Shown here: positions 10,486 to 43,281 of the stretch, in pieces
How positions within the stretch are numbered: the stretch's first letter is position 1
Layout of the letters: each line of letters begins with the position of its first letter
NCBI GenBank assembly: GCA_030066975.1
Contig: JASJAO010000011.1
Location: 1 to 64,000, forward strand
Direction: 5' to 3'
Origin: Henriciella sp.
Lineage (GTDB): Bacteria; Pseudomonadota; Alphaproteobacteria; Caulobacterales; Hyphomonadaceae
DNA: 64,000 nt
Notes under the pieces: generated by a model
What the model saw: only the letters and a program-made list of their open reading frames with translations
What the model was told of the DNA's origin: nothing
Databases searched by the model: none
Made by a program: the position numbers and the translations under genes

Positions 10486-10504
10486 GGCACCGATCGAGGG
10501 GATC

Positions 10505-11827: not shown

Positions 11828-11904
11828 AAGACGGCTGTGTCGGACATGCGTGACGGGTGTGATGCGCAGGGTCGGAACCCAGTTCGAATCTCCAGGATCT
11901 GATC

Positions 11905-13549: not shown

Positions 13550-13583
13550 AGCTTGTGGGGGACCCGGTTGGTTGTCATTGGCC

Positions 13584-14975: not shown

Positions 14976-16138
14976 CACAGCGCCAGTGCCTCGATTGTCA
15001 CGGACTCGATCTTGGCGCGTAAGGCGCGTGGAAACGTTCCGGCCACGCCTTGCAGGGTCAGGGTCTGAAACGCACAATCGGATGCCGGGACTTCAAACTC
15101 GAACGCCAATTCAGCCGGCAGTTCTGTCAGCTCCAGGATCTCGTAGACCGCCAAGGACTCCTTGGCGTCAAAGCATGTTACAACCCAACTCAGATGGCCG
15201 CCAAACTCCACCTGCGAGCCGCTGATGATTGTACGCAATCGATAGGACCCCGGCTCAAGTTGAACAATCTGGCTGGCGATGCGGGGACGGTTTTGACCAA
15301 AATAGGTCACCGCCAATCCGCCGCGCGACTCAATGTCAGCAAATTGTCCCGTGAGGGACCAGTTGAAGGGGCGCGCCCCGGTCCGCGGTTCGAAATTCGG
15401 GTTGTAGACCAGACCCAGGCTGTCCCTCTCTGTGTCCGACAACAGGTCGAGGAAAACCTGACGTGCAGAGGCGATATCGCTGGAGCGGACGAACGAGCGT
15501 ACGAATTGCGAGTGCAGCTTCGTATGCGGTTTGACCATGGCAAGCATTGAGGCGTCGGCTGGATTGAGCTCAATCAATCGCGCAATGAAGTTTGCCGCCC
15601 AATCGGGTTCACGCGTTAGGGCGTCCTGTATGGCTGAGCGGCTGTCGTCCTCGATGTAGAGCGCTGAGGCGATGTCGAAGTAAATACTTCTCTGCTCCCC
15701 ATTCACCACCATCAAACGATCAAGATTTTTCACTGCGCCAGCGTGGTCTCCATTCAGCATATCGTCGTTTAGCCGGGCTAGAAGCGCGATCGAGTGACGC
15801 GCATCCAGATCAAGCAAGTGGTCGGCCAGCGTTTCCGCATTGGTAAAACTCCCGGCATTCAAAGCGTAAATGACATTGGCTTCGAAAAGTCGCGTATCCA
15901 GGGGCGCTTCATGAAACAGTTGAATAGATCTGGCCGACAGTGGGACCTGGAAGTCTTTGGCTTCAATCCAGGTATCGACCATATCGCCGTAGAGTCTGGC
16001 ATCCTCATAGGGGTCCAGACGTTCCACGACCTGAAAATTCGGGATGGCCTCTGACGTGGCCGATACGCGGTAAGCCAGAACCAGACCCGCATATATCGTC
16101 AATACCAGTCCGAAGACGAACGCTATTGATCGAACCAC
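14975..16138 (-). CDS. Membrane-anchored helical-repeat protein of the EPS operon, unknown function
   Basis: No gene name is recognised. The 387-residue product starts with one transmembrane segment (SIAFVFGLVLTIYAGLVLAY). It then has an alpha-helical, TPR-like region (about 50-215, for example SFTNAETLADHLLDLDARHSIALLARLND) and a beta-rich C-terminal part beginning LVYNPNFEPRTG. That opening is reminiscent of carbohydrate-binding jelly-roll domains. It overlaps the Wzc-type gene by 16 bases and the polymerase by 4, so it is translated with the export machinery. A periplasmic scaffold for polymer handling is plausible but is inference. Confidence 0.7.
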   Translation of the reverse strand: MVRSIAFVFGLVLTIYAGLVLAYRVSATSEAIPNFQVVERLDPYEDARLYGDMVDTWIEAKDFQVPLSARSIQLFHEAPLDTRLFEANVIYALNAGSFTNAETLADHLLDLDARHSIALLARLNDDMLNGDHAGAVKNLDRLMVVNGEQRSIYFDIASALYIEDDSRSAIQDALTREPDWAANFIARLIELNPADASMLAMVKPHTKLHSQFVRSFVRSSDIASARQVFLDLLSDTERDSLGLVYNPNFEPRTGARPFNWSLTGQFADIESRGGLAVTYFGQNRPRIASQIVQLEPGSYRLRTIISGSQVEFGGHLSWVVTCFDAKESLAVYEILELTELPAELAFEFEVPASDCAFQTLTLQGVAGTFPRALRAKIESVTIEALAL

Positions 16139-18402
16139 TCTTCAGCCTTGTCAGTTTTTGGCGCTGGCTCATCGTCTGTGAACAGCTTGATTTTGCGCTT
16201 GGCGTCGCTTTTCGACTTCACCTTACGCTCCTGATAAGCATACGCGCTTTTGCCGTAAGCATAGGAGTAGTAGCCGTGATGATAGCCGGATTTCTTCGCG
16301 TCAAATCGTGTCAGGATACCGCCGACAATATTTGACCGGCTTTCCAGCAATCGTCCGACCGTTCTCTGGACAGCCGGGGTGCGCACTGTTCCGGCCTGTA
16401 CCGCAAGCAGGGTGGCCTCACAGATCGATCCAAGCAGAGGCGCGTCGGTGAAGCTGAGCACCGGCGGGCTGTCGACAATGATTACATCAAACGTGTCTTC
16501 TGCCGTCGCAATGAGATCTTTCAAACGCGGCGACGATAGAAGCTCTGCCGGGTTTGGTGGGACGATGCCGGCTGGCAACAGATGCAGGCCTGGCGTCGCG
16601 GCTGGAATGATTTCGTCCTCCAGATTCGCATCGCGCGTCAGCATGCCGGACAGACCGATCGACGACCCGACATCAGCAACGAAAGACGGTTTGCGCATAT
16701 CGGCATCAATAATGAGAACGGTTTTGCCGACTTTCGCAAAGGCCATGGCCAGGGCGACGGTTGAACTGGTTTTCCCTTCTCCTGGTCGAGTACTGGTGAT
16801 CAGGATGCTGCGGGGTGTGCCGGTTTCGGTGGTAAATTCGAGCGCTGTGCGGGCAGAGAAAAACGCTTCCGAGACGCCCGATTTGGGATTTTGCAGCTCG
16901 CTCGTCACGATGTCTTTGGTCCCGCGCACGGTCGGCACAACACCAATGGTCGGAAGTCCGAGTTTGGACTTCATGTCGTCGGGCGACTTGATCGTATCGT
17001 CGATATAATTGAGCAGGAAGGCGAGACCGATGCCGGTCGCAAGGCTGAGCACGATGGCCTGTAGAATGGAGCGCGGCAGATTGGGCTGAAATGGCAGGCC
17101 GGGAACGAGCGCCGGGTCAATCACGGAGACCTCACTGGAGCCAATCCCACTGGCGATCGACACTTCTTTCATACGGGCCAGCAAGGCTTCGTACTGGGCC
17201 CGATTTGTATCCACTTCCCGCGACAGGATGGTGTACTCAATCCTGCGATCCCGCAGTGAGAGGAGATCCCCCTTCAGTTCTTCCACGCGTTGGCGCAGCG
17301 AAGATTCGCGGGCAGAAGCGGCGCGGAAGTCAGCTTCCAGCGACGACAGAATGTTCCGCTTCTCCAACTCGATGTCGCCGCGTACCGAATCGATCTGAAT
17401 TTGAAGGTCGACCATGTCTGGATAGTCGGGTTTGAAAACCGTCAGATTGCGGCGATAGTTCGATTCCAGCGAAGCGAGTTCGTTCCTCATTTGCCTGACG
17501 TTCGGATTATTCAGGATTTCCGAGCTTGTCGCAGAGCTTGAAGCTTCTCTGTAGCGCTGCTCAGTTTGAATGCGGGCACTTTCGGCTTGAGCGAGCTCGT
17601 CATTGAGCGAGACAATGGAATTCTCATCGAGGGATCGGCCTGATCCATCGACTCCGAGGTCCAGAATGTCCTGATTGGATGCGTATTGGACCAGTTCACG
17701 CTCCGAAGCCTCCAGTGCCAGTTTGGTCGTGGCGAGGCGTTCCTCAATGAACTGGCGGGCATAAGCGGTCGTATTGTAGCGACGTTCCAGATTGGTCTGG
17801 ATGAATGTTTCTACAAGCGCGTTGGCGATTCTGGCTGTTTCCCGCGGATAGGGGCTGATAAATTGTACGCTGATGACCCGGCTGCGGGATTCTGAATCCA
17901 CACGGATATTTCGCGTAATGATGCCAGCGGCCTGTTTCACTCGCAGATCACGGCTAAGCGCCTGATTGGCATAGAGTGGATCGTCGGCAAGGTTGAGGTT
18001 CTCCGCCACCCGTTCCGCGAGGGAGCGACTTTGCAATAACGCAAACTGCGTCGACATATGCTCTTCATCCGCAACAACAGTCGGGCTGAGTGTGGACTCC
18101 AGGATGGTCGCTTCCTGGTTTTGAATTTCAATCGTGGTTGTGGCGCGAAACAGCGGTGTAATCTGCAGAGTCAAAATCGCTGCGATTGAGACACCGAGCA
18201 GCGTGATCGTCAGAATGAGCCATTTCCGGTTGAGAATAATCTGCAACGTATCCCAGAAATTGAACTCGTCGCGACTGCCCGGGTCCAGGTCTGGTCCGAA
18301 CATGTTGGGATCGTAAGTCTCGATCGCACGGCCAGCATGTGGGACGATGCCGGTTCCGGAACGGCCAGGCTGGCCGCGATAATCTGGATCTTGATAATTC
18401 AT
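16123..18402 (-). CDS. Wzc-type polysaccharide co-polymerase with tyrosine autokinase domain
   Basis: This PCP-2a/BY-kinase protein has a transmembrane helix near residues 60-82, a long periplasmic coiled-coil region and a second helix around 440. The cytoplasmic kinase has Walker A RPGEGKT (about residue 540), Walker A' IIDADMRKPS and Walker B VIIVDSPP. A C-terminal tyrosine cluster (YHHGYYSYAYGKSAYAY) is the expected autophosphorylation target. It regulates chain length and opens the export channel with the Wza-type protein. The ATG at 18402 is preferred over a TTG at 18408. The Wza-type gene lies 21 bases upstream. Confidence 0.93.
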   Translation of the reverse strand: MNYQDPDYRGQPGRSGTGIVPHAGRAIETYDPNMFGPDLDPGSRDEFNFWDTLQIILNRKWLILTITLLGVSIAAILTLQITPLFRATTTIEIQNQEATILESTLSPTVVADEEHMSTQFALLQSRSLAERVAENLNLADDPLYANQALSRDLRVKQAAGIITRNIRVDSESRSRVISVQFISPYPRETARIANALVETFIQTNLERRYNTTAYARQFIEERLATTKLALEASERELVQYASNQDILDLGVDGSGRSLDENSIVSLNDELAQAESARIQTEQRYREASSSATSSEILNNPNVRQMRNELASLESNYRRNLTVFKPDYPDMVDLQIQIDSVRGDIELEKRNILSSLEADFRAASARESSLRQRVEELKGDLLSLRDRRIEYTILSREVDTNRAQYEALLARMKEVSIASGIGSSEVSVIDPALVPGLPFQPNLPRSILQAIVLSLATGIGLAFLLNYIDDTIKSPDDMKSKLGLPTIGVVPTVRGTKDIVTSELQNPKSGVSEAFFSARTALEFTTETGTPRSILITSTRPGEGKTSSTVALAMAFAKVGKTVLIIDADMRKPSFVADVGSSIGLSGMLTRDANLEDEIIPAATPGLHLLPAGIVPPNPAELLSSPRLKDLIATAEDTFDVIIVDSPPVLSFTDAPLLGSICEATLLAVQAGTVRTPAVQRTVGRLLESRSNIVGGILTRFDAKKSGYHHGYYSYAYGKSAYAYQERKVKSKSDAKRKIKLFTDDEPAPKTDKAEEWFDQ

Positions 18403-18423
18403 GTTCAATCCGTTCGGCAGAGC

Positions 18424-19107
18424 CTATAATATGAGCAGGAAGCTCAACAGAGGTATGGTTCTGAGAAGGTCGCCGTACGCCGCTCGCGCTTCTGAACCAT
18501 CCATAACGATAATGTCATTGCCGTAGACAATGGGGTCTTCTGCCTCGCCATTTCGAATGGAAATCAAATCGAAGCCTGCGGCATGGCGCTCGCCTTCGAT
18601 CTGTCGAAAGATGACAACTTTTCTGGGATTGGCGGATGCACTCGGGCCGCCCCCAAGTGCGATGGCCTGCAACAAGGTCAGTTGGCCTTCGACCGGATAG
18701 ACCCCTGGGCTGTTGATTGACCCTTCCAATGTGATCTGTTCACCGCGGGATTCAACAATGCGTACGGTGACATCTGGAGATTGGAGATAGCTTTCAGCGA
18801 GCCTCGTCTCGAGCAGATTGGCAAGCTCAAGCGCTGTATAGCTATTGGCATTCACCTCGCCGATCAGCGGCACTTTGATCCGCCCGACATGGTCGACTTG
18901 ATAAGTGCCGTCGAAATCGTCGACGCCGTAGACGTTGATTTCGAGGATATCGAGCGGCGTAATCCGCAGATCACCGCTTTGTCGGATTGATGTCGCGTCG
19001 GGTAAGGACAGCGCGGTTGCATCCGGCATTGGCGTACGATCAATCGAGGAACAGGCCGCCAGTGCAGCCAACATTCCAACCAAAATTCCAAGAAAAATTT
19101 TCCGCAC
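18424..19107 (-). CDS. Wza-type polysaccharide export outer-membrane lipoprotein
   Basis: The 227-residue product has a lipoprotein signal with lipobox LAAC (MRKIFLGILVGMLAALAAC). A Poly_export domain follows (ITPLDILEINVYGVDDFDGTY, VDHVGRIKVPLIGEV), then one SLBB-type segment (ITLEGSINSPGVYPVEG). It is shorter than E. coli Wza and resembles GumB-type proteins, ending in a hydrophobic tail (TIPLLSFLLIL). It forms the outer-membrane exit pore for EPS. It starts with GTG at 19105-19107, preceded by AGGGAAG, and is the first gene of the leftward export operon. Confidence 0.92.
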   Translation of the reverse strand: MRKIFLGILVGMLAALAACSSIDRTPMPDATALSLPDATSIRQSGDLRITPLDILEINVYGVDDFDGTYQVDHVGRIKVPLIGEVNANSYTALELANLLETRLAESYLQSPDVTVRIVESRGEQITLEGSINSPGVYPVEGQLTLLQAIALGGGPSASANPRKVVIFRQIEGERHAAGFDLISIRNGEAEDPIVYGNDIIVMDGSEARAAYGDLLRTIPLLSFLLIL

Positions 19108-19634: not shown

Positions 19635-20930
19635 ATGATGGCAGCTCAATCTTTCGAAAACCTGGTGCCAAGACAGGACCCGGAAGCAAGATTGCTGCTG
19701 CTGACCGCCAAAACGGATCTTAGTGAGGACCAGCAAAGCGAAGTGCAGGCATTGGCCCGTCAGGTCAAAGACTGGGACTTTTTTACCGAGACAGCGGCGC
19801 ACAAGTTTTCAGCGACGTTCGCGCATCGGCATCTGGAACACTATGCCCCAGACATTCCGCCGCCAGAGATTATGGAGAAACTCAAGGGGCTTTCGCGCCT
19901 TACCGGCATGGCGACATTGAAGGTTACGGCTGCTCAGATCGCGTTCCACAAGGCCTGTATCGAAACAACCGGTGCTCAGCACGCTTATTTAAAAGGCGTG
20001 GCCCTGTCAGTTCAGTATGGCCGCAACATTGCCGATCGGTATTCGCGCGATGTTGATGTTCTGGTCGCGGAGAAGGACTTTGACCGGGTCATTCAGAAGG
20101 CGGCGGATATCGGATACCGGATCCTTTTGGAGCATGAGCCGTTGGAATACGCGCAGTCTGCGCAGGACATTAAGTTCGTGTCGCGATACGCCGATGTCGT
20201 CACTTTGTTGGGGGCGGATTTCGTGCCAATCGAAGTTCACCGACGCATGGGGAAACTCAGTCTCAACTTTAACCTGGACCAGGTGTTTGAAACTGCCGAA
20301 CCGATCGAGGTCTCCGGCGTGCCGATGCGAACGATTTCCAAAGCGCTGCATCTCGTCTATGTCAGCTATCATCATTCCCGTCACTTCTGGTCGCATTTGC
20401 ATTGGCTGGCCGATTTGGATTCGATGATCCGCTCGAGTGATTGCCGCCGTGATGAGGTCAATGAACTGGCCGACTCGATCGGGATCCGGCCTACGATTGA
20501 CGCAGCGTTCGAGTTTCACGACCTGATTTCCCGACCGTCGCTTTGGGACACGATAGATCCAGCTTTAGAGGGCGGCTCACAATTTCTCAATGCATGCTTG
20601 CTGAACCTTGAGGGCGGGCTGGAACTGGAAGAGAGTCTGCGCGGCGGAATGGCGCTCGGCGATTTCATGTCGGCCTGGCAGATTTCTCCGGGCAAGTACA
20701 ATACGTTCTGGAAGAATTCATGGTTTCGCAGGCTAAGGCCCACATCCACGCAATATGTGAAACGACGGTATCCGCGGTTTCTGCAATGGATCTACTACCT
20801 TGAAAATGCTTCGGTTCTGATGGGGAACGGATTTGGGCGCGCCCGCGGACGCCCGACCAAACCGGACCAAAAACTCCCCAGCCGAGAAGCGTCGGCTACA
20901 GCTGCGGATACTGAAGGCCAATCATCGTGA
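19635..20930 (+). CDS. Nucleotidyltransferase-family protein of the lasso-peptide cluster
   Basis: The 431-residue product resembles the uncharacterised nucleotidyltransferases (NTP_transf_5 type) often found in lasso-peptide clusters. The core motif is LKGVALSVQYGRNIADRYSRDVDVLV, with the DVDVLV acidic residues expected to bind metal. Downstream it has PIEVHRRMG and a helical HLVYVSYHHSRHFW segment. It may transfer a nucleotide or act on a phosphate of the peptide; its true substrate is unknown. The start ATG-ATG at 19635 has GGAAG upstream. It overlaps the ABC transporter gene by four bases (GTGA), so it is the first gene of a three-gene operon with the exporter and the B1 protein. Confidence 0.8.
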   Translation: MMAAQSFENLVPRQDPEARLLLLTAKTDLSEDQQSEVQALARQVKDWDFFTETAAHKFSATFAHRHLEHYAPDIPPPEIMEKLKGLSRLTGMATLKVTAAQIAFHKACIETTGAQHAYLKGVALSVQYGRNIADRYSRDVDVLVAEKDFDRVIQKAADIGYRILLEHEPLEYAQSAQDIKFVSRYADVVTLLGADFVPIEVHRRMGKLSLNFNLDQVFETAEPIEVSGVPMRTISKALHLVYVSYHHSRHFWSHLHWLADLDSMIRSSDCRRDEVNELADSIGIRPTIDAAFEFHDLISRPSLWDTIDPALEGGSQFLNACLLNLEGGLELEESLRGGMALGDFMSAWQISPGKYNTFWKNSWFRRLRPTSTQYVKRRYPRFLQWIYYLENASVLMGNGFGRARGRPTKPDQKLPSREASATAADTEGQSS

Positions 20931-22723
20931 CCAAGTTTAGTCAGCTCGGCTTCATTTGGAGCCGCGTGTTCATGCTGTTGCGCCAATCGGCCCCCATATT
21001 GAGTATCGCCGTCACGGTGGTGACGATTCTTGAGGCGCTTGCCGGTATTGCTGTGCTCTATGTGATCAAGATTCTGGTTGATACGATCACCCGGGAAATG
21101 ACCGCCGAGACCACAGGCAGTTTTTCTGATGTCCTGATGGTGCTTATCCTGACCGGCGGGTCTATCCTTCTGGCCGTCTTGCTGCAGAGTCTGGCGAGCG
21201 CTCTGCGCATGCGGCAGGGACTGATCGTCAGCGACCATGTCGATCGCGAAATCCACGACCGCGCGATTGCCGTTGATCTTCGATATTATGAGAGCCCGAT
21301 CTATTATGATGCGCTTCAAAAAGCGCGTCATGGCGGCTCTGAACGTCCTGCTCAGATCGTCGCCAATGTGGTGACGACCTTGCGCGCGGCGCTGTTGCTG
21401 GCGGCGATTTTCATCCTGTTGAGCGGAATTGAGATGCGGCTGCTACCGGCCCTGATCATCCCGATTCTGATCGCACTGTTTGTACGCCTCTATTTCGCCC
21501 GCAAGCTGTTTGAGTGGCGGATGTCCCGGGCGCAGCTGGACCGTCGCACCAGTTATCTTGATTGGATGATGACCAATGTGGCGCATGCCAAAGAGCTGCG
21601 GCTCAATCGGATCGGGCCGTTCCTTCGCGATCAGTACCGCGCCGGCCGCAAGGAAATCCGACAGGGTGAAATTTACATTGAACAAGCGCGACTTGGCACG
21701 GAGTTTATTACGTCGATGCTTGGCGCGGCAGTCTTTATCGGGGCAAGCGCTCTGCTTTTGCAGCAATCTCTGCAGCATGGCCGACCGATCGGTGACGTCG
21801 TTCTGTTCGTCTTGCTGCTACGGCGGGCGGAATCGTCGGGTAAGGAATTTGTCGGGAATGTTTCCAAGATCGTGGATGATCACCTGTATCTGCGGAAGCT
21901 GTTTGAATTCCTGTCGGTAAAGCCGGGAATCCACGCCCCGGACCAGCCTCACGCCCTGCCGGACAAGCTGTCGACCGGGCTGGTCGTCGACAATATATCG
22001 TTTCGATATGACGAGGCACCGAGCGACGCGCTGAACGGCGTGTCGATGAAAATTGAGCCGGGTCAGATCGTAGCGCTGGTTGGTGAAAACGGATCTGGCA
22101 AGACGACCCTGATCAAGCTTCTGACCCGGCTGTATGACCCTTCAACGGGCTCGATCAGTCTTGATGGGACGGATATTCGTGAGTTTGAGCCCGATGAGTA
22201 CCGGCGGCTAATGAGTGTGATTTTCCAAGACTATGCTGTGTATGCGGAGACGGTCGAGGATAATATCCGGTTTGGGGATATCGACCTGCCCTTCGATCAG
22301 CAGAAGATCATTGATGCGGCCCGATCAGCAGGCGCCGCGAGCTTTATCGAGAAGCTGCCAAATGCCTATCAGACGCCGCTGACGAAACTGTTCGACAATG
22401 GCCAGGACCTCAGCATTGGCCAGTGGCAGCGTTTGGCCCTGGCGCGATCTTTCTATCCCAATTCAAAATTCATCATTCTGGATGAGCCGACAAGTGCGGT
22501 TGATCCCAAGGCTGAGTTTGAACTGTTCGAAGACTTTCGCGCGCATCTGAAAGGGCGCGGCGCGTTGATCATCAGTCACCGCTTGTCGACGATACGTCAG
22601 GCTGATTATACATATTATCTGGAGTCAGGTCGGATTGTTGAAGAAGGCCAGCATGATGACTTGATTTCGGCAAAGGGGAAATATGCTGAGCTTTTCCAAA
22701 AACAGGCTTGGCATTACAGATAA
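20927..22723 (+). CDS. Lasso-peptide ABC exporter, fused permease and ATPase (D protein)
   Basis: The 598-residue half-transporter has an N-terminal six-helix permease (about 20-310) and a C-terminal ATPase with Walker A GENGSGKT (386-393), signature LSIGQWQRLALAR and Walker B FIILDEPTSAVD. The dimer would export the mature lasso peptide and give self-immunity. It starts with GTG overlapping the nucleotidyltransferase stop and is followed by the PqqD-like gene. No peptidase domain is present, as expected because leader removal is done by B1/B2. The cluster context is the main reason for assigning a lasso peptide rather than EPS as substrate. Confidence 0.88.
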   Translation: MTKFSQLGFIWSRVFMLLRQSAPILSIAVTVVTILEALAGIAVLYVIKILVDTITREMTAETTGSFSDVLMVLILTGGSILLAVLLQSLASALRMRQGLIVSDHVDREIHDRAIAVDLRYYESPIYYDALQKARHGGSERPAQIVANVVTTLRAALLLAAIFILLSGIEMRLLPALIIPILIALFVRLYFARKLFEWRMSRAQLDRRTSYLDWMMTNVAHAKELRLNRIGPFLRDQYRAGRKEIRQGEIYIEQARLGTEFITSMLGAAVFIGASALLLQQSLQHGRPIGDVVLFVLLLRRAESSGKEFVGNVSKIVDDHLYLRKLFEFLSVKPGIHAPDQPHALPDKLSTGLVVDNISFRYDEAPSDALNGVSMKIEPGQIVALVGENGSGKTTLIKLLTRLYDPSTGSISLDGTDIREFEPDEYRRLMSVIFQDYAVYAETVEDNIRFGDIDLPFDQQKIIDAARSAGAASFIEKLPNAYQTPLTKLFDNGQDLSIGQWQRLALARSFYPNSKFIILDEPTSAVDPKAEFELFEDFRAHLKGRGALIISHRLSTIRQADYTYYLESGRIVEEGQHDDLISAKGKYAELFQKQAWHYR

Positions 22724-22759
22724 AGGCTGGTTTCAAGACGAAAACCAGGAGTGAAGTGT

Positions 22760-23041
22760 ATGGTGGAATTAGAGACGGGATCGATTATTCGGCGGGCAGA
22801 ATTGCCAGGCAGCCGGGTCGATGACGAAATGGTGTTTTTCAACCCCGTCGCGGGCAACTATTACGGAACAGGGCCGGTCGGCGCCGAGATTTGGGACTTT
22901 CTGGAAACGCCCCGTTCGCTGAGTGAAATTTGTGACCACCTGCTGGCCAAATTCGAGGTCGATCGCCAGACCTGCGAAGCACAGCTGCGTAGTTTCATTT
23001 CAGAAATGCTGAATGAAGGCATTGTCCAACCCGCCGACTGA
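22760..23041 (+). CDS. PqqD-like RiPP recognition protein (lasso B1)
   Basis: The 93-residue protein has the PqqD/RRE fold pattern: VFFNPVAGNYYGTGPVGAEIWDFLE, followed by a winged helix with SLSEICDHLLAKFEVDRQTC. B1 proteins bind the precursor leader and present it to the B2 protease and the C cyclase. The ATG at 22760 has AGGAG eight bases upstream and is preferred to GTG 22751. It is the last gene of the rightward operon. B1 and B2 are separate genes here and on opposite strands, unlike the fused B protein of most proteobacterial lasso clusters. Confidence 0.9.
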   Translation: MVELETGSIIRRAELPGSRVDDEMVFFNPVAGNYYGTGPVGAEIWDFLETPRSLSEICDHLLAKFEVDRQTCEAQLRSFISEMLNEGIVQPAD

Positions 23042-23055
23042 GTGTTTCAGCATAC

Positions 23056-23096
23056 CCGATCCAGATAGGGCGCGGCCAAAACAGTGGATCGGTTTT
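23056..23096 (+). terminator. Possible terminator after the B1 gene
   Basis: CCGATCC (23056-23062) and GGATCGG (23086-23092) are inverted repeats followed by TTTT, between the converging B1 and kinase genes. The 23-base loop is long, so this is a weak call. Confidence 0.35.
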
Positions 23097-23103
23097 GGGT
23101 GTG

Positions 23104-24048
23104 CTAAAGGGCCAGATTCTGTTGGCCCAGAACGGCCAGATCTATATTGGCCATGACTTCTTTCTCAACGGACGCGTCTTTGGGCCGTGTCAGCATTTCG
23201 ACTTCAATGCCCGCGGAAAGTGCCATAGCGGCCTCCACAACCGTGTCACGATTACCACAGATCGCTGCCAGTTCCGGTCGATAGATCGCCCCCAAGGCAA
23301 CCTGAAAGGCGTGCCGTCCGGTGAGTTTCTGTAGTTCCAGCGTGTCTCCCCACTGCAATAGGATAAGTCGTTTCAGGGGAAAGCGACCGATCCTGAACTT
23401 GCTGGGCTCAATGGCATGGAACTTGTCGTGGCGGGTTAAATCCCGCTTCAACCCGTCACTGGTCAGGTCAAGCGACTGCAACGCGTCCTGCCAGAGCTTT
23501 ACTGTGTTCACGCCCGATTCCAGGAAGAAGCCGTCGGCGCTGCGGTAAAGTCCGGACACATCATCACTGACCAGCGGCCAATCTGTGGTCCGGTTGATAT
23601 GGGCGGCAATCGTCGATTTGCCGGCCCCGGACTCGCCGGTAAAGGCGATCACTCCGTCGGGCGCGAGAATCGCACTGACATGCAGCGGCACCAAACCGCG
23701 CTGATGGGCAACGGTGGCGAGGCCCGAACCGACCAGAAAGGCACGGAGGTCATCATACGAAGCCCGCGGATCTTTCTCGACCAGGACATGCCGCCCGTCT
23801 TCGACCAGAACCCGACCGATTGCCGGAAACCGCAGCAGGCAGGTCCGGTCGTCGACCTGCACCCAAATCTTTGAGTCTTCCTGCCCGGGCAGGTGTTCGG
23901 GGACATTGCCGATCTCAATCGTCACGTCCGGCGTCTGATCACCCCGATCTGAATCGGATGTGACTCGGGTCAGTTCCGGCAAATCAAGGGCTGATTCAAC
24001 CAGCATCCCGTAGACGCGATACAGCGCGCTCAATTTATTGGACATCAT
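23104..24048 (-). CDS. HPr-kinase-like protein, probable lasso-peptide kinase
   Basis: The 314-residue product carries the HPrK P-loop GESGAGKST (138-146), preceded by the family segment GLVPLHVSAIL, and a downstream LVSDD (159-163) matching the catalytic acidic region. It lacks the N-terminal domain of true bacterial HPrK/P. In kinase-containing lasso clusters such as that of paeninodin, this family phosphorylates the C-terminal Ser of the precursor. The precursor here also ends in Ser (Ser48). The gene is 26 bases downstream of B2 on the same strand. A role in regulating sugar uptake is unlikely given its neighbours. Confidence 0.85.
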   Translation of the reverse strand: MMSNKLSALYRVYGMLVESALDLPELTRVTSDSDRGDQTPDVTIEIGNVPEHLPGQEDSKIWVQVDDRTCLLRFPAIGRVLVEDGRHVLVEKDPRASYDDLRAFLVGSGLATVAHQRGLVPLHVSAILAPDGVIAFTGESGAGKSTIAAHINRTTDWPLVSDDVSGLYRSADGFFLESGVNTVKLWQDALQSLDLTSDGLKRDLTRHDKFHAIEPSKFRIGRFPLKRLILLQWGDTLELQKLTGRHAFQVALGAIYRPELAAICGNRDTVVEAAMALSAGIEVEMLTRPKDASVEKEVMANIDLAVLGQQNLAL

Positions 24049-24074
24049 AATCTGTTATCCGCCGCGCTTTGTGA

Positions 24075-24572
24075 TCATGGCTTGACCGCCATTGGTGTCG
24101 CGGTACCGCGATCAACAAACGCGGCGACGGCTGAATAATCCTGCGGCGTGCGACCACCCGCTATATCGAAATCACCATGAATAACCCAAGCGTGGGCCCC
24201 CAAGGCATTGTTCAAGCCTTCTTCATTCCGGCTGACCCCAAGAACCAGGACGCTGCCATAATGACGCCGGCGCAGCATGGCGCGCGCCGAAAAGCCCAGC
24301 ATCAGACAGGTAAAATGCGATCCGAGCCGTCTCGACAGTACCGCATGGGCCCAGGCCACATTGCGCAGGCGCACGTCTTTGATCGGCTTAAACTCGGAGT
24401 TGGTGGATGGAACTTCTGCAAGCGAGACCGGCGTGCCCAGCCAACGTCGCCATCTGGAGTACGGGACGACTTTGATCATGAACCAGGCCAGTGACGTATT
24501 CGCGAACGCTTCGGTCAGCACGAGCTTCCGTCGGAAAGGCAGTCGCCAATATCGCACCAGATAATTCAACAT
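24075..24572 (-). CDS. Lasso-peptide leader peptidase, transglutaminase-like (B2)
   Basis: The 165-residue protein matches the B2 protease family. The catalytic Cys is in HFTCLMLGFSARAML (Cys89), the His in GAHAWVIHGD (His127), and an Asp follows (Asp134 or Asp136), giving the cysteine-protease triad. It cuts the leader after the recognition protein B1 has bound it. The N-terminal half (YWRLPFRRKLVLTEAFANTSLA) is typical of lasso B2. I place the start at ATG 24572, preceded by AAGAAG; an upstream TTG at 24644 is less likely. It is divergent from the precursor gene and coupled with the kinase. Confidence 0.88.
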   Translation of the reverse strand: MLNYLVRYWRLPFRRKLVLTEAFANTSLAWFMIKVVPYSRWRRWLGTPVSLAEVPSTNSEFKPIKDVRLRNVAWAHAVLSRRLGSHFTCLMLGFSARAMLRRRHYGSVLVLGVSRNEEGLNNALGAHAWVIHGDFDIAGGRTPQDYSAVAAFVDRGTATPMAVKP

Positions 24573-24979
24573 CACACTTCTTGTTCTAAAGCGCGCCCGG
24601 ACCTCGGACAAGGTTCCGTTAACGTTGAGCGACCGGTCCGCCAAGGATCGATCGAATCAGCCTTTGAACAAATTTCCCACTCCGTTTGAAAGGTTTATGC
24701 TTTCTATCGCATCCAGCGTGCGCCCTCATTTGTTTCAATATCGCACACCTATCTGCGGATCAATCAGATCATTCAGGTCGGAATATGCTTAGATTTCAGT
24801 CGGTCGCTGCCTGAATGTCGAGCGTCGGAGGGGGCGATGCGGGGGAGAGTCTCATTTTTGCAACCCATTCCCCTCTTATTTGGGGTGTTCCCGGAAAAAG
24901 CGCTTGCAAAGGCGACTCTCCGCGCGTATTAACCTTCTCAGGCAGGAGTGCCATTCGAACTTTAACATTGGGGATTATG
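24573..24979. promoter_or_regulatory. Divergent control region of the lasso cluster with a precursor promoter
   Basis: This 407-base region separates B2 (leftward) from the precursor gene (rightward). TTGCAA (24904-24909) and TATTAA (24927-24932), spaced by 17 bases, form a good candidate promoter for the precursor, giving a leader of about 40 bases. The leader contains TTAACATTGGGGATT just before the start, identical to the leader of the FecR-like gene. Nothing else was recognised in the upstream 300 bases. Confidence 0.5.
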
Positions 24980-25126
24980 ATGAATACTCCGGAACAAAAA
25001 TTGACTTGGGTTGCACCAAAGCTTGAAAAGCTCAGCGTCGAAAAGACCCTGACAGGTTCAACTCCTTTTGCATTTGAAATCTTCAATGCTTCAAACCAGC
25101 CAGTCGGTGGTCCAACCACCAGCTAA
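24980..25126 (+). CDS. Lasso-peptide precursor (A)
   Basis: The 48-residue peptide has a leader motif W10-x2-P13-x-L15, as bound by RRE proteins, and Thr23 at the position expected to be two residues before the cut. Cutting after Leu24 gives a 24-residue core starting Thr25-Gly-Ser-Thr. The only acidic residue in the core is Glu33, which would be core position 9 and close a nine-residue macrolactam. Alternative cuts before Gly26 or Ser27 would give eight- or seven-residue rings. The C-terminus is PTTS, with Ser48 a likely kinase target. GGGG lies six bases before ATG 24980 (an ATG at 24977 is too close). A strong terminator follows. This gene is too short for standard gene-size cutoffs. Confidence 0.85.
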   Translation: MNTPEQKLTWVAPKLEKLSVEKTLTGSTPFAFEIFNASNQPVGGPTTS

Positions 25127-25150
25127 GGCTGACCATCAAGGTCTTTGAAA

Positions 25151-25177
25151 CGCCAGCACGTTGTGCTGGCGTTTTTT
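25151..25177 (+). terminator. Strong terminator between precursor and cyclase genes
   Basis: CGCCAGCAC (25151-25159) pairs perfectly with GTGCTGGCG (25163-25171) around a 3-base loop, followed by six T. It starts 24 bases after the precursor stop and should make precursor mRNA much more abundant than cyclase mRNA through partial read-through. Confidence 0.92.
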
Positions 25178-25266
25178 ATTAGAGCCTTGGGATTGGTTCC
25201 ATGGAGTATGCTCCTGACGCCTGATATAGGCGAGGCCGACAGCTGCGACATCGAGGTTCGAACGCC

Positions 25267-27159
25267 GTGAGTGCAATACTGGGCAGAATCGAACTGGGTG
25301 ACAGAGCCGTGGGGCGAGCTCAATTTCGGTCCGCTTTTGAAACATTGGGCGCCTATGGGTCCGATCATTCTGAGCTGAATATCAATGGTGGCATCGGCGT
25401 TGGATGCCATCACCTGAGAGTACGCTCAGGTCCAATCTCTGATTCGCCCTCCGCTTCGCAACAGTCCGTAATTGTGGTTGCCGATGCGATTCTCGATAAT
25501 CGCGCGGAACTTGCAAAGTCACTAAGTGTGTCTGATGAAGCGCTTACCGCCTTGTCTGATACGGAGCTTATCTGGCGCAGTTTTTTGCGCTGGGGAAAAG
25601 ACTGCGTTCAATATCTGGAAGGTGACTATGCGTTTGCATGCATAGACACTGATCGTAGAGCTGTCTTCCTAGCGCGCGATCATATTGGGTCGCGGCCTTT
25701 ATACTGGGCTTTACGAGGCGAGACATTCTTGTTCGGTACATCGGTGGAGGCGCTTGTCGGCTTCAGCGATCTCCAGTGGTCAATCGATGAAGAGGTCATT
25801 GCAGAGTACCTCTTCTACCCTGTGACACCGGTGTCCAAACCTTTTTTTCAGGACCTCCATTCGGTTCTTCCCGGTGGGTATGTTCAGCTCGATCAAGGCC
25901 AAGTCACGACGGAGCGCTGGTGGGATCCGTCCGATAAAGTTATCCGCCGTATTGACGGTAAGGACGATGTGGTCGCCGAATGCAGGCGTTTACTGGATGA
26001 TGCGGTGATTAAGCGTATCCAAACCAGCAGACCTGTCGGCAGTCATTTCAGCGGTGGCCTCGATTCGACCGGCGTAGGTGTGATCGCATCGCGGTACCTG
26101 CGCTCGAAAGGACAACAACTGGCTGGCGCCTATGCCTGGTCACCTCCAGTCTCTGAGGATTATCCGGACGACCATGCGCGGGATGAACGCCCCTTTATCG
26201 ACGCGATTGCTGAGGCCGAGAGTATACCGTTACGCTTTGGGGCAGGGGACTCGGAGAATTTTCTCGAATTCATCAATCGCCCCATGGAGTTTGAGAACGA
26301 AACTGACCTTGCGGACGAGTTGCCGATTTTGCAGGCGGCCCGTTCCGACCAGGTTGGAACGATGCTCTCGGGATGGGCCGGTGACGAGGCATTCTCTTCT
26401 CATGGCCGCGGCTATTTGGGGTATCTGATCCTTCGAGGGCGATTCGCCACCGCGAAGAAGTTTGTCCATTTCCGCTACAAGTCTTTGAAGAATCTACCGC
26501 TATTGATGTCTCTGATGTGGTGGGAAGTGGTTCATCCACTTCTGCCGACCGGACTCTACCATCGCTTGGGCCGCTATCAGTATTTCAGCGAGGATTTCCT
26601 GTTTGCTTCAATGCAACTGTCAAAGCGGCATGGAAAGCTACGACAGCGCCGGCGGAACAGCATCAAGTTTACACTCAACCCGAACCGAAACCTTAAGCGC
26701 CACCTGCAGGCGGGACATGTTAATCGACGAATGGAGTCGTGGGCGGCATGGTCGGCCCCTTACGGCTTTCAGTATCGCTATCCATTAGCGGATCGGCAGC
26801 TTCTTGAGTTTTTACTCACTTTGCCGCCGGAAGAGCTGTTCCTGGACACCACACCGCGGGGGCTTGCCAGAGCAGTGTTGGCCGATTGTGTGCCGCCTGA
26901 GGCCTCCAAAGAAGACATCGCGAATGAACGACTGCGTTACAATACGCGAGTTGGGGCCTGGAATGCGCTGGCAGAAAGCGCTGAAGCGGGCGGCTACGCC
27001 GATGAGTGCCCCTGGATCGACAAAGCCGCGTTCCTTGAGGCCTTGAAACAGCCATTAGATCAGAATGACAAATCCTACATTGTCACATTTGCCAGTATTA
27101 CCGCGGCCGCCCGCGTCTGGGCGCTCTATCGCCGGGCGAAGCGCTATGGTTGGGTGTGA
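25267..27159 (+). CDS. Lasso-peptide macrolactam synthetase, asparagine-synthetase-like (C)
   Basis: The 630-residue protein has a glutaminase-like N-terminal half without the Cys2 nucleophile (it begins MSAILGR) and an AMP-forming synthetase half with PP-loop SGGLDST (262-268). This is the lasso C protein, which adenylates the acidic side chain of the core and joins it to the new N-terminal amine. It starts with GTG at 25267 and lies 140 bases after the precursor stop, beyond the terminator, so it is probably expressed by read-through or from a promoter in that gap. It converges on the epimerase gene 18 bases away. Confidence 0.92.
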   Translation: MSAILGRIELGDRAVGRAQFRSAFETLGAYGSDHSELNINGGIGVGCHHLRVRSGPISDSPSASQQSVIVVADAILDNRAELAKSLSVSDEALTALSDTELIWRSFLRWGKDCVQYLEGDYAFACIDTDRRAVFLARDHIGSRPLYWALRGETFLFGTSVEALVGFSDLQWSIDEEVIAEYLFYPVTPVSKPFFQDLHSVLPGGYVQLDQGQVTTERWWDPSDKVIRRIDGKDDVVAECRRLLDDAVIKRIQTSRPVGSHFSGGLDSTGVGVIASRYLRSKGQQLAGAYAWSPPVSEDYPDDHARDERPFIDAIAEAESIPLRFGAGDSENFLEFINRPMEFENETDLADELPILQAARSDQVGTMLSGWAGDEAFSSHGRGYLGYLILRGRFATAKKFVHFRYKSLKNLPLLMSLMWWEVVHPLLPTGLYHRLGRYQYFSEDFLFASMQLSKRHGKLRQRRRNSIKFTLNPNRNLKRHLQAGHVNRRMESWAAWSAPYGFQYRYPLADRQLLEFLLTLPPEELFLDTTPRGLARAVLADCVPPEASKEDIANERLRYNTRVGAWNALAESAEAGGYADECPWIDKAAFLEALKQPLDQNDKSYIVTFASITAAARVWALYRRAKRYGWV

Positions 27160-27177: not shown

Positions 27178-28206
27178 TTACTTTTCGACACCTGAGGCTA
27201 ATTCGGGGGTCCGAGACGGGTCCTCAGGCTGCGCTCTCGACCGCCAATCCTGAAACCAGGTCACAAACCGTTCCAAACCGGTTTGCAGCGACGTATCAGG
27301 CGAGAAGCCATAGTCATTCTGCAATCTGGAGACGTCGGCAAATGTCTCAACCATATCGCCGGGTGGGAGATCGGCGAGTTGAACTTCGGCTTTTTTGTTG
27401 AGCAGGGTTTCAAGGATCTCGATCATGCCGCCGACGGGCTCGGGCTTGTGATTGCCGATATTATAGACGCGATGTTGTTTGATCTCTGGCGCGGCGTCCT
27501 GAACGTCCTCGACAAGATGCACGATGGTTGTGACGATATCGTCAATATAGGTGAAGTCCCGCCGGACATTGCCATGGTTGAACAGCCTGATCGGGCGGTT
27601 GTTCAGAATGGCGTCGGCGAAGGTCCAATAAGCCATGTCAGGTCGCCCCCAAGGGCCGTAGACTGTGAAGAACCGCAGACCCACCATGTCGATTGCGTAC
27701 ATGGATGAATAGGTGTCTGACAGCACCTCGTCAGCGATCTTTGAGGCCGCATAAAGCGATTTCGGCGTTTTAAGCAGCATGCCTTCATGGAAAGGCACCG
27801 TATCCATGCCGCTATAAACCGAACTCGATGACGCATACATCAGTCGTTTCACTGATTTTGTGTTGCGCACGGCCTCAAGCAAGCTGACCTGTCCGTAAAG
27901 ATTGGAGCTGGCATAGTCCATCGGCTGGAGGAAGGAATGGCGCACACCGGCCTGGGCAGCGAGGTGTACAACAGCGTCCGGTTGTTCCTCGGCCATCAGG
28001 GTCTGCAAGGCCTCACTGTCGGTAATATCCAACTCGAGTTGTGTAGAGCCTTGGCAGAGCGCTTCAATGCGAGCACGCTTCAAGGCTGGATCATAGTAGC
28101 TGTTATAATTGTCGATACCGACCACATGAAAACCGTCAATCGCCTGCAGCGCCTGGCACGTATGTGCACCAACAAATCCTGCTGATCCGGTTACGAGTAT
28201 CCTCAT
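27178..28206 (-). CDS. NAD-dependent sugar epimerase, UDP-glucuronate 4-epimerase-like
   Basis: This 342-residue extended short-chain dehydrogenase has the nucleotide-binding GSAGFVGAH, the YAASK active site (Tyr-x3-Lys), and the segment NYNSYYDPALKRARIEAL typical of UDP-glucuronate 4-epimerases (LpsL/Cap1J type). It would make UDP-galacturonate for the EPS. Late motifs RRDFTYIDDIV and YNIGNHKPEPV agree. It works with the UDP-glucuronate decarboxylase at 47.3 kb on a shared substrate pool. It may be the last gene of the leftward EPS block. Confidence 0.88.
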   Translation of the reverse strand: MRILVTGSAGFVGAHTCQALQAIDGFHVVGIDNYNSYYDPALKRARIEALCQGSTQLELDITDSEALQTLMAEEQPDAVVHLAAQAGVRHSFLQPMDYASSNLYGQVSLLEAVRNTKSVKRLMYASSSSVYSGMDTVPFHEGMLLKTPKSLYAASKIADEVLSDTYSSMYAIDMVGLRFFTVYGPWGRPDMAYWTFADAILNNRPIRLFNHGNVRRDFTYIDDIVTTIVHLVEDVQDAAPEIKQHRVYNIGNHKPEPVGGMIEILETLLNKKAEVQLADLPPGDMVETFADVSRLQNDYGFSPDTSLQTGLERFVTWFQDWRSRAQPEDPSRTPELASGVEK

Positions 28207-28518
28207 TGGGTCAGCGTCCTGGTGAGTTGGTGTGGGGTGACAAGATTTTGTCGATTTTGAACTGCATCATGATCTAGTGTCCAAGTCTCGATTTGCGAGC
28301 GTTAACCGATTGGTTCCTGCAAAGGCCCATACGGTGAATTTCTAAATCTCCAAACCAGATTTGACCCCGAACGTGCAAGGATTCATTTGCAGACCAGGCC
28401 TTGCCCAATCTCGCAAAGCTTTCGGTCGCCGTGAAGCGTGGTGAATTCTGGGCGCCTGCTCGATGCGGAATTTGAATTGCCGTACTGTATGCAGCGCTGA
28501 ATACGCTCAGCCAGTCAG
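28207..28518. other. Intergenic region between polymerase and epimerase genes
   Basis: I see no gene, terminator hairpin or clear promoter in these 312 bases. The A+T content is somewhat higher than in the flanking genes. It should carry the epimerase promoter if that gene is not read from the polymerase transcript. Confidence 0.4.
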
Positions 28519-29916
28519 TCAACGCATGTGTCTAGAATTGTTCAATCGACCGGTCGCAAACCGTGCGTTCAGTCGTCGTCTTTCCCGTTCTTGGTCCCGG
28601 ATCGCCGTCATGGCCAACCTTCTTTGGTGAACGTAGCTCGCGGTTATGCCAATGACAAAGGCTGTGAACACCATATTCGTGACGAACAGGGCTTGGAGAA
28701 GCAAGAAGGACAAGATCAGAAAGAGCGTCATTTCCAGCGCATTCTTTCGGCCAAGCTGCAGGAGCAAGATGGCTGGGCATACGAAGATCAACAGGATGCC
28801 GAAGGCGCCGAGATCGAACATAACCTCCAAGAGTTGCGAGTTCAGCGGAAGAATTCTGGCATTTTCTCCATAGCCGGCACCCAGGCCGTACTCCCTGCTG
28901 AACACATAATTATAGCGGCCCAGCCCAACGCCGAAGGCGGCAACTTCCGGGTTCCTCTGGGCATAATCACTGGCATAGAATTCCTGTCGATAGACGGTCT
29001 CGCCATCAAGACCGACTTCGACCTCATCGAATCGATCCATGATTGTGCTTTCGATGGTCGAGTAGGCTGCGTTACCCAAGGACGGATTGGCAATGAACAA
29101 GAGCGATAGCGGCAGCAATCCGATGATTCCGACGCGAAGCAGTTTTGGAGAAATCGAGCCGACAATGAGAATCGTAAGCGCCACGGCAAAGAAAAAGGAA
29201 CCCGAGAAGGTTAGCAATGCCATGAGCAAGCTTACGAATCCGGTGCCAAGAAGGAACAGGCGACTATCTGGCGATCTCGCCTGGCGCACCAGATAGAACG
29301 CAGCGACAGCGGCAACAAAAAGAACATAGGCAAGGCGTTTTGGCTCAGAAGCAAGGCCATTCACCCGCAAGGTTCCAAATCCCATGGCCAGGCTGTAACC
29401 GCCGCTTGAACCGCGAACGATAGCCCGAAACGGAAGCCCGGTTTCAAGTGCGAATATCTGGTAAAGTGAGTATCCGGAATGGATCGCACCGGCAATCGCG
29501 AGCCCCCAGATCGCAGCCCTCATATCCGCCCGTGTTCGCACTTTTGCGAAGGCATACAAGAAAGTGAACGCCATCGACGAATAGTAAAGAGCGCGCATGA
29601 ATGGACGCGATCCGGCGCCGCCTTGATAAACGCCCCAGGCTAACGTTGCCAGGATACAGATGCCGAGCACACCGATCAGGCCGCCATGGATACCGACGCG
29701 GCCGGTCTTGTCTGCAACGATCAACCAAGCCCCCAGAATCAGCGGAACAATTTGAACCGGGGCGATCTGAGATACGACCGGCACAATGAAGTAGAGCGAC
29801 AGGATTGTGGGCAGGGCGTAAAGCAACAGCTCCTGACGTCGGATGAGCGCGTAGACGGTGAACGCCACACAGAGCGCCACAACCACGTAATCAACCCAAC
29901 TGTGTCCGACTGGCAT
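28519..29916 (-). CDS. O-antigen polymerase-like (Wzy) multi-spanning membrane protein
   Basis: The 465-residue protein has about eleven hydrophobic segments and a large periplasmic loop (about 290-370). That loop has the Wzy-like stretch FGVGLGRYNYVFSREYGLGAGYG and then LNSQLLEVMFDLGAFGILL. Family members polymerise undecaprenyl-linked repeats. The C-terminus is a basic cytoplasmic tail. AAAGGTGGG precedes the ATG at 29916. As there is a second candidate at 13.6-15 kb, one may be the polymerase and the other a ligase; sequence alone does not decide. Confidence 0.8.
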   Translation of the reverse strand: MPVGHSWVDYVVVALCVAFTVYALIRRQELLLYALPTILSLYFIVPVVSQIAPVQIVPLILGAWLIVADKTGRVGIHGGLIGVLGICILATLAWGVYQGGAGSRPFMRALYYSSMAFTFLYAFAKVRTRADMRAAIWGLAIAGAIHSGYSLYQIFALETGLPFRAIVRGSSGGYSLAMGFGTLRVNGLASEPKRLAYVLFVAAVAAFYLVRQARSPDSRLFLLGTGFVSLLMALLTFSGSFFFAVALTILIVGSISPKLLRVGIIGLLPLSLLFIANPSLGNAAYSTIESTIMDRFDEVEVGLDGETVYRQEFYASDYAQRNPEVAAFGVGLGRYNYVFSREYGLGAGYGENARILPLNSQLLEVMFDLGAFGILLIFVCPAILLLQLGRKNALEMTLFLILSFLLLQALFVTNMVFTAFVIGITASYVHQRRLAMTAIRDQERERRRLNARFATGRLNNSRHMR

Positions 29917-30045
29917 AGGTTCATCCCACCTTTGAGATTAATCTACTCGTATCGTGCGTATGATCAAATGAACGCGGCAGCAATAAGGTGGCTCGGGTCA
30001 AGCGTCTTTCAGCTCATGTTCGCTTGATCTGCGAGGAAGTCATGT

Positions 30046-31242
30046 TCAGACAAGCCTGTGCATATGGGCCATCAGATCCGATGCCGTGCCTGACCAGGAA
30101 TAGTGCTGACGGACCGTGTTGATCTGGTCCTGTGTGGATTGAGCCCACAGATCACGGGTGACAAAATCGATGATGGCGTCGGCAAGCGCCGAGGGGTCAC
30201 TGTCCACGAGTCGGCCGTTGCTGATGGTCGTGATATCGGGCAGGGCGCCTGCAGGCGATCCGATGACCGGCAGGCCGGCGGCCGCAGCATCCAGCGCCGT
30301 CATACAAAATCCCTCTTCCGTTGAGGGCTGAATGTAGAGATTTGCAGCGTCATAGAGGTTTGGCAGTTCAGAAAATGGAACCGACCCACTTGTGATCACG
30401 ATGTCCTGTAGCCCTCGTGCTGCAAGATCGCTGTCGATGGCGTCCTTGTACCCGGAGATGCGGGCAGCCGGCCCGGCAACACGCCAGCGAAAATCGAGCC
30501 CTGCAGTCTGCAGAAGGTGAGCGACTTCAGGGATCAGGTGTTGGCGCTTATGCGGGACCCAGCCGCCCATTGTCAGCAATTGAACCGGTGTTCCAGGGGC
30601 TGGGCGCCTGGAAGAGGGCGGTGACATGCGGTCAAGAAGATCGCTGAAAACCCCGTGGGGTAGGGTTTGAATATTGTCACCGGGGCGTACGCGCGCCAAT
30701 GCCTCGCTCACCTGGTCGCTCGGCGTGACATAGAGATCGTAGGCATGGCGTTTGAGCCGCGACTGGTTTTTCCAGGCCACCGCGCTGACACGCAGTTTGT
30801 CTTTCAGTCGCCGCAAAATGGCGTCACCCTCCCAGGAGGTCGAGCACTCCATTGGCGGCAGATTATGAACGGTTGCGCCGCAGGGAATACCGGCCGCTTT
30901 CAGCTTTGCGGTTTCCAGCGTTTCCATAAGGAACAGGCCGAAGAAGACATGAACAAAATCAGTGTTGCCGCGCTCAGCCGCTGCCTGGACCACAGCATTG
31001 GCCGCTGTACAGAACGCATATCGGCTGACCCGGCTGGGGTCACCAGAATCCGGATAGTCGGCGTCAATGAATGTCACCTCGTAGGGCAACGCCGAGAGAT
31101 CGACCTGGTCTTTCTGCTGGTTCGGCACCAACAGGTTGACCTCGTGTCCGAGGGCCGCGAGTGCTGTGCAGGTCTCATGCACATAGTTCACGGTTCCGCC
31201 AACACGCGGCAGAAAGTGTTCACTGAGCCCAAGGAGTCTCAT
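30046..31242 (-). CDS. GT4 family glycosyltransferase
   Basis: This 398-residue GT-B enzyme has the N-terminal LLGLSEHFLPRVGGTVNYVHE, a glycine-rich acceptor-side loop, and in the C-terminal half TMGGWVPHKRQHLIPEV. The donor-site motif STEEGFCMTALDAAAAGLPVIG follows, with the E-x7-E spacing of GT4. It adds one sugar to the EPS repeat at the cytoplasmic membrane face. It lies between the polymerase and GT2 genes on the same strand, 46 bases after the GT2 stop. Confidence 0.88.
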   Translation of the reverse strand: MRLLGLSEHFLPRVGGTVNYVHETCTALAALGHEVNLLVPNQQKDQVDLSALPYEVTFIDADYPDSGDPSRVSRYAFCTAANAVVQAAAERGNTDFVHVFFGLFLMETLETAKLKAAGIPCGATVHNLPPMECSTSWEGDAILRRLKDKLRVSAVAWKNQSRLKRHAYDLYVTPSDQVSEALARVRPGDNIQTLPHGVFSDLLDRMSPPSSRRPAPGTPVQLLTMGGWVPHKRQHLIPEVAHLLQTAGLDFRWRVAGPAARISGYKDAIDSDLAARGLQDIVITSGSVPFSELPNLYDAANLYIQPSTEEGFCMTALDAAAAGLPVIGSPAGALPDITTISNGRLVDSDPSALADAIIDFVTRDLWAQSTQDQINTVRQHYSWSGTASDLMAHMHRLV

Positions 31243-31288
31243 GGTCTGCCCTTCGTGTGAACAGAACTGAGCGGTATCAGGGGTGGCA

Positions 31289-33432: not shown

Positions 33433-33441
33433 GGGTTGGGT

Positions 33442-33984: not shown

Positions 33985-34076
33985 TCAGTTGGGCCTAGCA
34001 TCGGACGATCAGGGGACCAAGCACGGGCGTGTTGCGTCATGGTATGCTCAGGTGTCGCGGTCTTGTGATACAAAGT

Positions 34077-36083: not shown

Positions 36084-36114
36084 CCGATAAATCCCGTGAA
36101 TAATAGGTCGTCAT

Positions 36115-36729: not shown

Positions 36730-36746
36730 GGTTTAGAACTGCCGGT

Positions 36747-37682: not shown

Positions 37683-37691
37683 GGGACAGAA

Positions 37692-38966: not shown

Positions 38967-39102
38967 GTTTGCACTCTCCGGTCCTGGGGGCCTCGGTATA
39001 GGTGTGAGGAATTTGCTGTCATTTTTGTCCTCACTCGCTACCGAAATCCTCGCGAGTTATCAAAGACTATTATTGCTGAAATCTGCGAATGTGACTTTCG
39101 CA

Positions 39103-40506: not shown

Positions 40507-40514
40507 AACGAGTT

Positions 40515-41357: not shown

Positions 41358-41392
41358 CGTTTACGTCTTCAATGCAAGCAGAGGTCTCAAAC

Positions 41393-43245: not shown

Positions 43246-43281
43246 TGATTATCTTGCTCGTGTGGCTGAAAATCTGTTCGA

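Follow-up and report, generated by a model that had tools for sequence, protein, structure and literature searches.

A split B1/B2 lasso-peptide gene cluster with kinase and nucleotidyltransferase genes inside an exopolysaccharide locus of Henriciella sp.

Why does the kinase-type subtype of lasso-peptide gene clusters recur beside exopolysaccharide (EPS) genes, and what would such a cluster make in an alphaproteobacterium? The question is raised by positions 19635-27159 of a 64,000-nucleotide stretch of Henriciella sp. DNA (contig JASJAO010000011.1, positions 1 to 64,000; the whole stretch is called the window below), which are a complete lasso-peptide cluster with split B1 and B2 genes inside an EPS locus. 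Genes, conserved catalytic residues, precursor pattern and genomic setting were observed directly. We assign a probability of roughly 85% to the joint reading that the cluster encodes a complete pathway of the paeninodin/pseudomycoidin type in an alphaproteobacterium, with the individual steps given further below.

A first-pass annotation of this DNA had named all core lasso parts plus a kinase and a nucleotidyltransferase, and translations together with Pfam and NCBIfam scans recovered these seven genes at the stated positions. The asparagine-synthetase-like protein C (25267..27159, plus strand) carries the proposed SGGLDST motif in frame and has Ser instead of the glutaminase Cys as residue 2. 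Among NCBIfam models it scores highest against the lasso cyclase NF033535 (247 bits, E 3.2e-73, model cut-off 525), followed by asparagine synthase with 168 bits, and PF00733 was matched as well. The transglutaminase-like leader peptidase B2 (24075..24572, minus strand) exceeds the cut-off of NF033537, lasso_biosyn_B2 (50.8 bits, cut-off 33), and matches PF13471. Two of the residues proposed as the Cys-His-Asp set of B2, Cys89 and His127, are invariant in 9/9 aligned proteins. B1 (22760..23041, plus strand) is a PqqD-like leader-binding protein, that is, a recognition element (RRE) of ribosomally synthesized and post-translationally modified peptides (RiPPs); it matches PF05402 over the cut-off (E 1.2e-16), and its best NCBIfam model is lasso_PqqD_Bac (E 9.8e-19, 67 bits, model cut-off 80). 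The ABC exporter D (20927..22723, plus strand; ABC_tran PF00005, E 2.8e-32) overlaps the end of the nucleotidyltransferase gene N (19635..20930, plus strand) by 4 bases. K (23104..24048) and B2 lie on the minus strand between B1 and the precursor gene A, while N, D, B1, A and C are all on the plus strand. The source genome (G000, 3.57 Mb, 24 contigs) has a single B2 and a single kinase of this kind, both at this cluster.

Typical lasso clusters of proteobacteria include a TonB receptor and an isopeptidase. Here B1 and B2 are separate genes, as the first-pass annotation had it, and a Pfam scan of 45 open reading frames (ORFs) of the window, all below position 56800, turned up no TonB-receptor family, while no search was aimed at an isopeptidase. 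The fused-B/TonB type was rejected because of the separate B genes and the lack of a TonB family among the scanned ORFs.

The precursor gene A (24980..25126, plus strand; alternative ATG start at 24977) translates into the leader MNTPEQKLTWVAPKLEKLSVEKTL followed by the predicted core TGSTPFAFEIFNASNQPVGGPTTS, which comprises 24 residues and ends in TTS with Ser24 as its last residue. The leader contains WVAPKL, a W-x-x-P-x-L motif, with Thr(-2) at motif position +13, and the core has Glu at position 9. A thereby combines a [Y/W]xxPx[L/V/I/F/A] leader, Thr(-2) and an Asp or Glu within core positions 7-9. Against the NCBI paeninodin precursor family NF033524 it scored 14.8 bits and did not reach the cut-off of 27, although the style of the leader is alike.

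To place these features in the family, every small ORF near kinase-containing loci with a Thr 13 residues past the leader-motif aromatic was counted, whether or not it had an acidic residue. Six duplicate loci of the same genomes were left out, and precursors with Ile or Val(-2) or with other spacing, mostly from Halomonas and sphingomonads, fall outside the count. This yielded 35 ORFs from 26 loci, at least four of which resemble chance ORFs. An Asp or Glu occupies core position 9 in 24/35 ORFs, compared with 6 for position 8, 4 for position 7 and at most 5 for any other position from 4 to 14. Because position 9 is acidic far more often than any other, we place the core boundary as given and the ring at residue 9; the leader spacing and acidic residue 9 of the window precursor are common to 23 others. 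A C-terminal Ser is present in 20 of the 24 acidic-9 precursors (21 loci, window included) and in 25/35 over all ORFs, which together with the TTS end supports the earlier proposal that the C-terminal Ser is the likely phosphate site. The four acidic-9 precursors that end otherwise are three from Aquidulcibacter and UKL13-1 (Lys, Lys, Arg) and one from a member of the Bacteroidota (Thr). The predicted product is TGSTPFAFEIFNASNQPVGGPTTS with a Thr1-Glu9 ring and a phosphate on the C-terminal Ser, for which monoisotopic masses of 2408.13 (lasso), 2488.09 (plus phosphate) and 2650.15 (plus hexose) are predicted.

Precursors of some other groups are arranged differently. Five Halomonadaceae loci (L123, L124, L135, L136, L138) have two adjacent kinase genes and several precursors per locus; the cores near B2 mostly end in GS, and in 4/5 of these loci a longer precursor ending in FS or YS stands beside the kinases. 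Two Bacteroidota loci (L157, L168) each contain several very short lasso-like precursors; their acidic residue is mostly residue 7 or 8 of the core, and Thr often replaces Ser at the C-terminus.

By analogy with studied homologues, on which every assigned reaction is modelled, B1 would bind the leader of A via W-x-x-P-x-L and present it, and K would phosphorylate Ser24 at the C-terminus of the core while the precursor is still linear. B2 would then cut between Leu(-1) and Thr1, and C would activate Glu9 with ATP and close the Thr1-Glu9 amide around the tail. N may add a group to the phosphate, which in the case of PsmN is a hexose (PMC9266682, PMC8498205), and D would export the product.

The earlier proposal to search for the same gene set in other genomes was carried out, and the set recurs in relatives, the two nearest having kinases 45-52% identical to K; chance is therefore excluded as the origin of this arrangement. 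At least one B2 was detected in 57/200 genomes searched, the source genome included, giving 86 B2 places, 12 of which have a kinase (window included). N of the window type (at least 600 bits) occurs at 5/12 kinase places, namely in the window, a second Henriciella genome (G015), G130, Aquidulcibacter (G169) and UKL13-1 (G161); a more distant N is found in two Brevundimonas kinase loci and a weak one in two further loci. In sister loci N co-occurs with K, B1, B2, C and D. A scan of 398 genomes of the order, in which five candidates were scored for each genome and the threshold was E 1e-20, gave a kinase in 14, so the cluster is rare and patchy. The best 78 of 92 matches of a kinase search of genome contigs span Pseudomonadota, Bacteroidota, Bacillota, Cyanobacteriota, Nitrospirota and one haloarchaeon, and in a quick tree the window kinase groups with Henriciella and other Hyphomonadaceae and then with a wider set including Paracoccaceae. 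The haloarchaeal locus (Natronococcus pandeyae, L185:8651-9965 and flanks) contains N, D, B1, B2 and K, with a sugar transferase 4 kb off; C was not found in the fetched stretch, and the locus is possibly a linear phosphopeptide pathway.

The combination of K and N, which the first-pass annotation did not know from published work, has already been described for pseudomycoidin (PMC9266682, PMC8498205) and for Bsf (PMC10368454). In the psm cluster of Bacillus pseudomycoides, psmK and psmN stand beside the lasso genes, and the C-terminal Ser is reported to be phosphorylated and then to receive a hexose (PMC9266682, PMC8498205). This cluster is like the window in joining a kinase and a nucleotidyltransferase to lasso genes, but its host belongs to the Bacillota, and the window product is a predicted one. 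SyanK of Sphingobium yanoikuyae is a tested alphaproteobacterial lasso kinase that acts on a C-terminal Ser (PMC9266682, PMC8498205). Its cluster and the paeninodin cluster of Paenibacillus share an HPr-like kinase and a C-terminal Ser with the window; a nucleotidyltransferase is not mentioned where these two papers deal with SyanK, whereas the window has N. The Bsf cluster of Bradymonas sediminis has the full set of A, B1, B2, C, D, K (bsfK) and N (bsfN) genes (PMC10368454), as the window does, and differs in the leader, with Ile(-2) instead of Thr(-2), and in the target of its kinase, Ser3. In Paenibacillus alginolyticus, paeninodin-like and LPP clusters with RRE, HprK-like kinase, NTP transferase and exporter are embedded in capsular polysaccharide loci (PMC13381572), which resembles the setting in the window; the host is a member of the Bacilli, and its second, linear RiPP system includes a signal peptidase, none of which was seen in the window. 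The same 2026 paper calls a biofilm role of such capsule-locus lasso clusters speculative. Lasso clusters with K and N, an alphaproteobacterial kinase for the C-terminal Ser and capsule-locus placement in Bacilli are thus known; new here are a proteobacterial member of the paeninodin/pseudomycoidin kind and a count of EPS linkage. Within the accessible open-licence literature, neither EPS linkage of proteobacterial lasso clusters nor a linkage count of this kind was found.

EPS genes were identified by Pfam on both flanks of the window cluster, in agreement with its earlier placement inside an EPS locus. The left flank (9946..19107) contains a NusG paralogue, an initiating sugar transferase, a glycosyltransferase, Wzy, a Wzc-like chain-length/tyrosine kinase and Wza. 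On the right (27178..46887, minus strand) follow an epimerase, glycosyltransferases, an acyltransferase, a pyruvyl transferase, an FrhB-like protein, sulfotransferases, an FkbM methyltransferase and an ABC transporter. Wza is transcribed divergently from N, about 530 bases lying between them, and next to N in the Henriciella locus L116, wza, wzc and wzy are arranged in the same way.

For a count of such linkage, a B2 place was taken as linked if it lay within 20 kb of Bac_transf (PF02397, initiating sugar transferase); in the first set, Poly_export (PF02563) was counted as a second marker. In the first set of 57 genomes, 8/12 kinase-type places were near PF02397 and 8/12 near PF02563, against 0/74 kinase-free places for either marker (Fisher 9e-9). 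Among the four unlinked kinase places, G145:C2 is genuinely separate, a second is 33 kb off, a third lies close to the end of its contig, and the contig of the last is 8.7 kb long; short contigs also occur among the kinase-free places. A second set consisted of 50 of 78 named loci, after removal of 14 on contigs under 15 kb, 6 already counted and L186-L193. Among its 59 B2 places, 14/49 with a kinase match within 20 kb were near PF02397, compared with 0/10 without (Fisher 0.05). By group, with a marker on a different contig scored as unlinked, 11/15 places were linked in Halomonadaceae and 0/15 in Sphingomonadales; most sphingomonadal kinases compared belong to another branch than the window kinase, and their clusters are not near PF02397. 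Four genomes from a fresh sample of the order contributed five new kinase loci, and 1/5 of these is linked, a weaker result than in the first set. Summed for the order, 9/17 kinase-type places are linked against 0/74 kinase-free ones (Fisher 3e-8); all these Fisher tests ignore relatedness. By chance about 2.6% of a genome lies within range, which for 74 places gives an expectation of 1.9; finding none is compatible with chance (P 0.15), and the signal is therefore the excess among the kinase loci. The EPS link depends on the lineage.

A competing explanation is that the EPS neighbourhood is merely an insertion hotspot without functional link, and we consider this only slightly less probable than its opposite. 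The patchy distribution of the kinase fits it, as do the eight unlinked loci of the order, the 15/15 unlinked kinase-positive places of the Sphingomonadales, the poor yield of the fresh sample and the chance-level result for kinase-free places. The linked share of kinase loci, far above the chance share and above that of the kinase-free places, speaks for a functional link, and so do the spread of the linked loci of the order over several deep branches of the quick kinase tree and the linkage reported in Bacilli as well (PMC13381572). A bolder proposal makes the kinase-type lasso peptide of several bacterial lineages a component of the EPS system: K would provide the C-terminal phosphate as an attachment point, and N would couple to it a sugar or sugar-phosphate coming from the EPS locus. 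This seems unlikely to us. If it were true, the lasso would be tethered in the matrix, released in glycoconjugate form or used to gate EPS assembly, and would not act as a free antibiotic. With the predicted core mass and the lineage-dependent linkage, this proteobacterial gene set makes the role of modified lasso peptides testable in Gram-negative hosts.

Our explanation is least certain about what N does chemically and about the biological role. N comprises 431 amino acids and matches PF14907 (NTP_transf_5, E 1.2e-31); the NCBIfam scan gave no usable name for it. Residues K119-G120, D138-x-D140, H201, H245 and D259 (numbering from 19638) are invariant in 28 aligned proteins, window included. 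A predicted model (mean pLDDT 90.7) gave partial-length Foldseek matches to the nucleotidyltransferases MenT1 (E 1.7e-4) and LnuA (E 4.7e-3) and a weak one to FKRP (E about 0.05-0.1). LicD/FKRP-like enzymes transfer sugar-phosphates. A serious but somewhat less probable alternative to hexose transfer is that N works as a genuine nucleotidyltransferase, or transfers sugar-phosphates in this LicD/FKRP-like manner, and so attaches to the peptide a nucleotide or sugar-phosphate that the EPS locus produces. The modelled nucleotidyltransferase fold with its intact D-x-D and the structural matches would suit this, and a review leaves undecided whether PsmN acts as a nucleotidylating enzyme, with glycosylation following by an enzyme of E. 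coli (PMC9266682). The FKRP match is weak, however, and a hexose was obtained with PsmN, the only tested homologue described in PMC9266682 and PMC8498205.

For K, neither the Pfam nor the NCBIfam scan returned a family above threshold. A profile of 38 proteins matched the HPr kinases 2qmh and 1jb1 best among solved structures, with E 3.7e-7 across the P-loop region; P-loop ABC transporters came second, with E about 7e-6. The predicted model (mean pLDDT 90.4) retrieved PEP carboxykinase first and HPr kinase next in a structure search; the two have a common fold. His109, GxSGAGKS and D148-D149 (numbering from 24006) are invariant in 38/38 aligned kinases, window included, and residues of the His, P-loop and Asp-Asp type are reported to be necessary in known lasso kinases (PMC9266682, PMC10368454). 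Profile, fold and residues thus bear out the HPr-kinase-like assignment made earlier. An HPr-rel-A system was rejected, K scoring only 16.9 bits to TIGR04352 (cut-off 200) and B1 24.9 to TIGR04353 (cut-off 35). It is quite unlikely that K modifies Ser3 or another ring residue instead of Ser24. The core does have a Ser3, BsfK phosphorylates the residue at that position (PMC10368454), and two sister genomes, Aquidulcibacter and UKL13-1, lack the C-terminal Ser; position 3 is Ser or Thr in only 3/24 acidic-9 precursors, however, against the 20 that end in Ser, and SyanK targets the C-terminal Ser (PMC9266682).

Besides this precedent of a kinase acting on Ser3 and not on the C-terminus, several observations weigh against a complete pathway as outlined. 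Aquidulcibacter (L064:10763-11866, the same as L129) and UKL13-1 (L082:5429-5581, the same as L144) keep K and N, while the last residue of each of their three precursors is Lys or Arg; judged from these precursors, the C-terminal Ser is not the kinase substrate in every relative, and such sister clusters can show other targets of these kinases. Most Bacteroidota precursors carry their acidic residue at 7 or 8, and a C-terminal Thr is frequent among them. The third, acidic position of the proposed B2 set, Asp, is not conserved in the nine-protein alignment, and both C and B1 stay under the curated cut-offs of their lasso models, which are narrow. It is highly improbable that C and B1 belong to an amidotransferase system of EPS or PEP-CTERM type instead of making a lasso peptide: C matches the XrtA/PEP-CTERM amidotransferase (136 bits, cut-off 817) and the cluster sits in an EPS locus, but the lasso cyclase is by far the best model of C, B2 exceeds its lasso cut-off, a precursor with the family-wide spacing is present, and the amidotransferase system was ruled out on these scores.

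Between A and C of the lasso cluster, a strong hairpin running into a T run (25147..25175, plus strand) was found by direct folding. It has 13 base pairs, and the 67-nucleotide fold reaches -33 kcal/mol (z -6.07, 0/200 shuffles as good); it is probably a terminator or attenuator. A terminator scan made 10 calls against 8.8 expected, no excess over chance, and the hairpin is not among them. The promoter scan gave 7 against 4.3 expected, and no promoter is claimed.

Three minor features concern the EPS locus and its border. The NusG paralogue (9946-10485) heads the locus and is perhaps a specialised antiterminator of long polysaccharide operons. Positions 36115-45124 hold three sulfotransferases over the Pfam cut-off and one weak match, so the polysaccharide is probably sulfated. 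Just beyond the locus, positions 49875-50633 encode an Abi_alpha abortive-infection protein (PF14337, E 4.1e-34).

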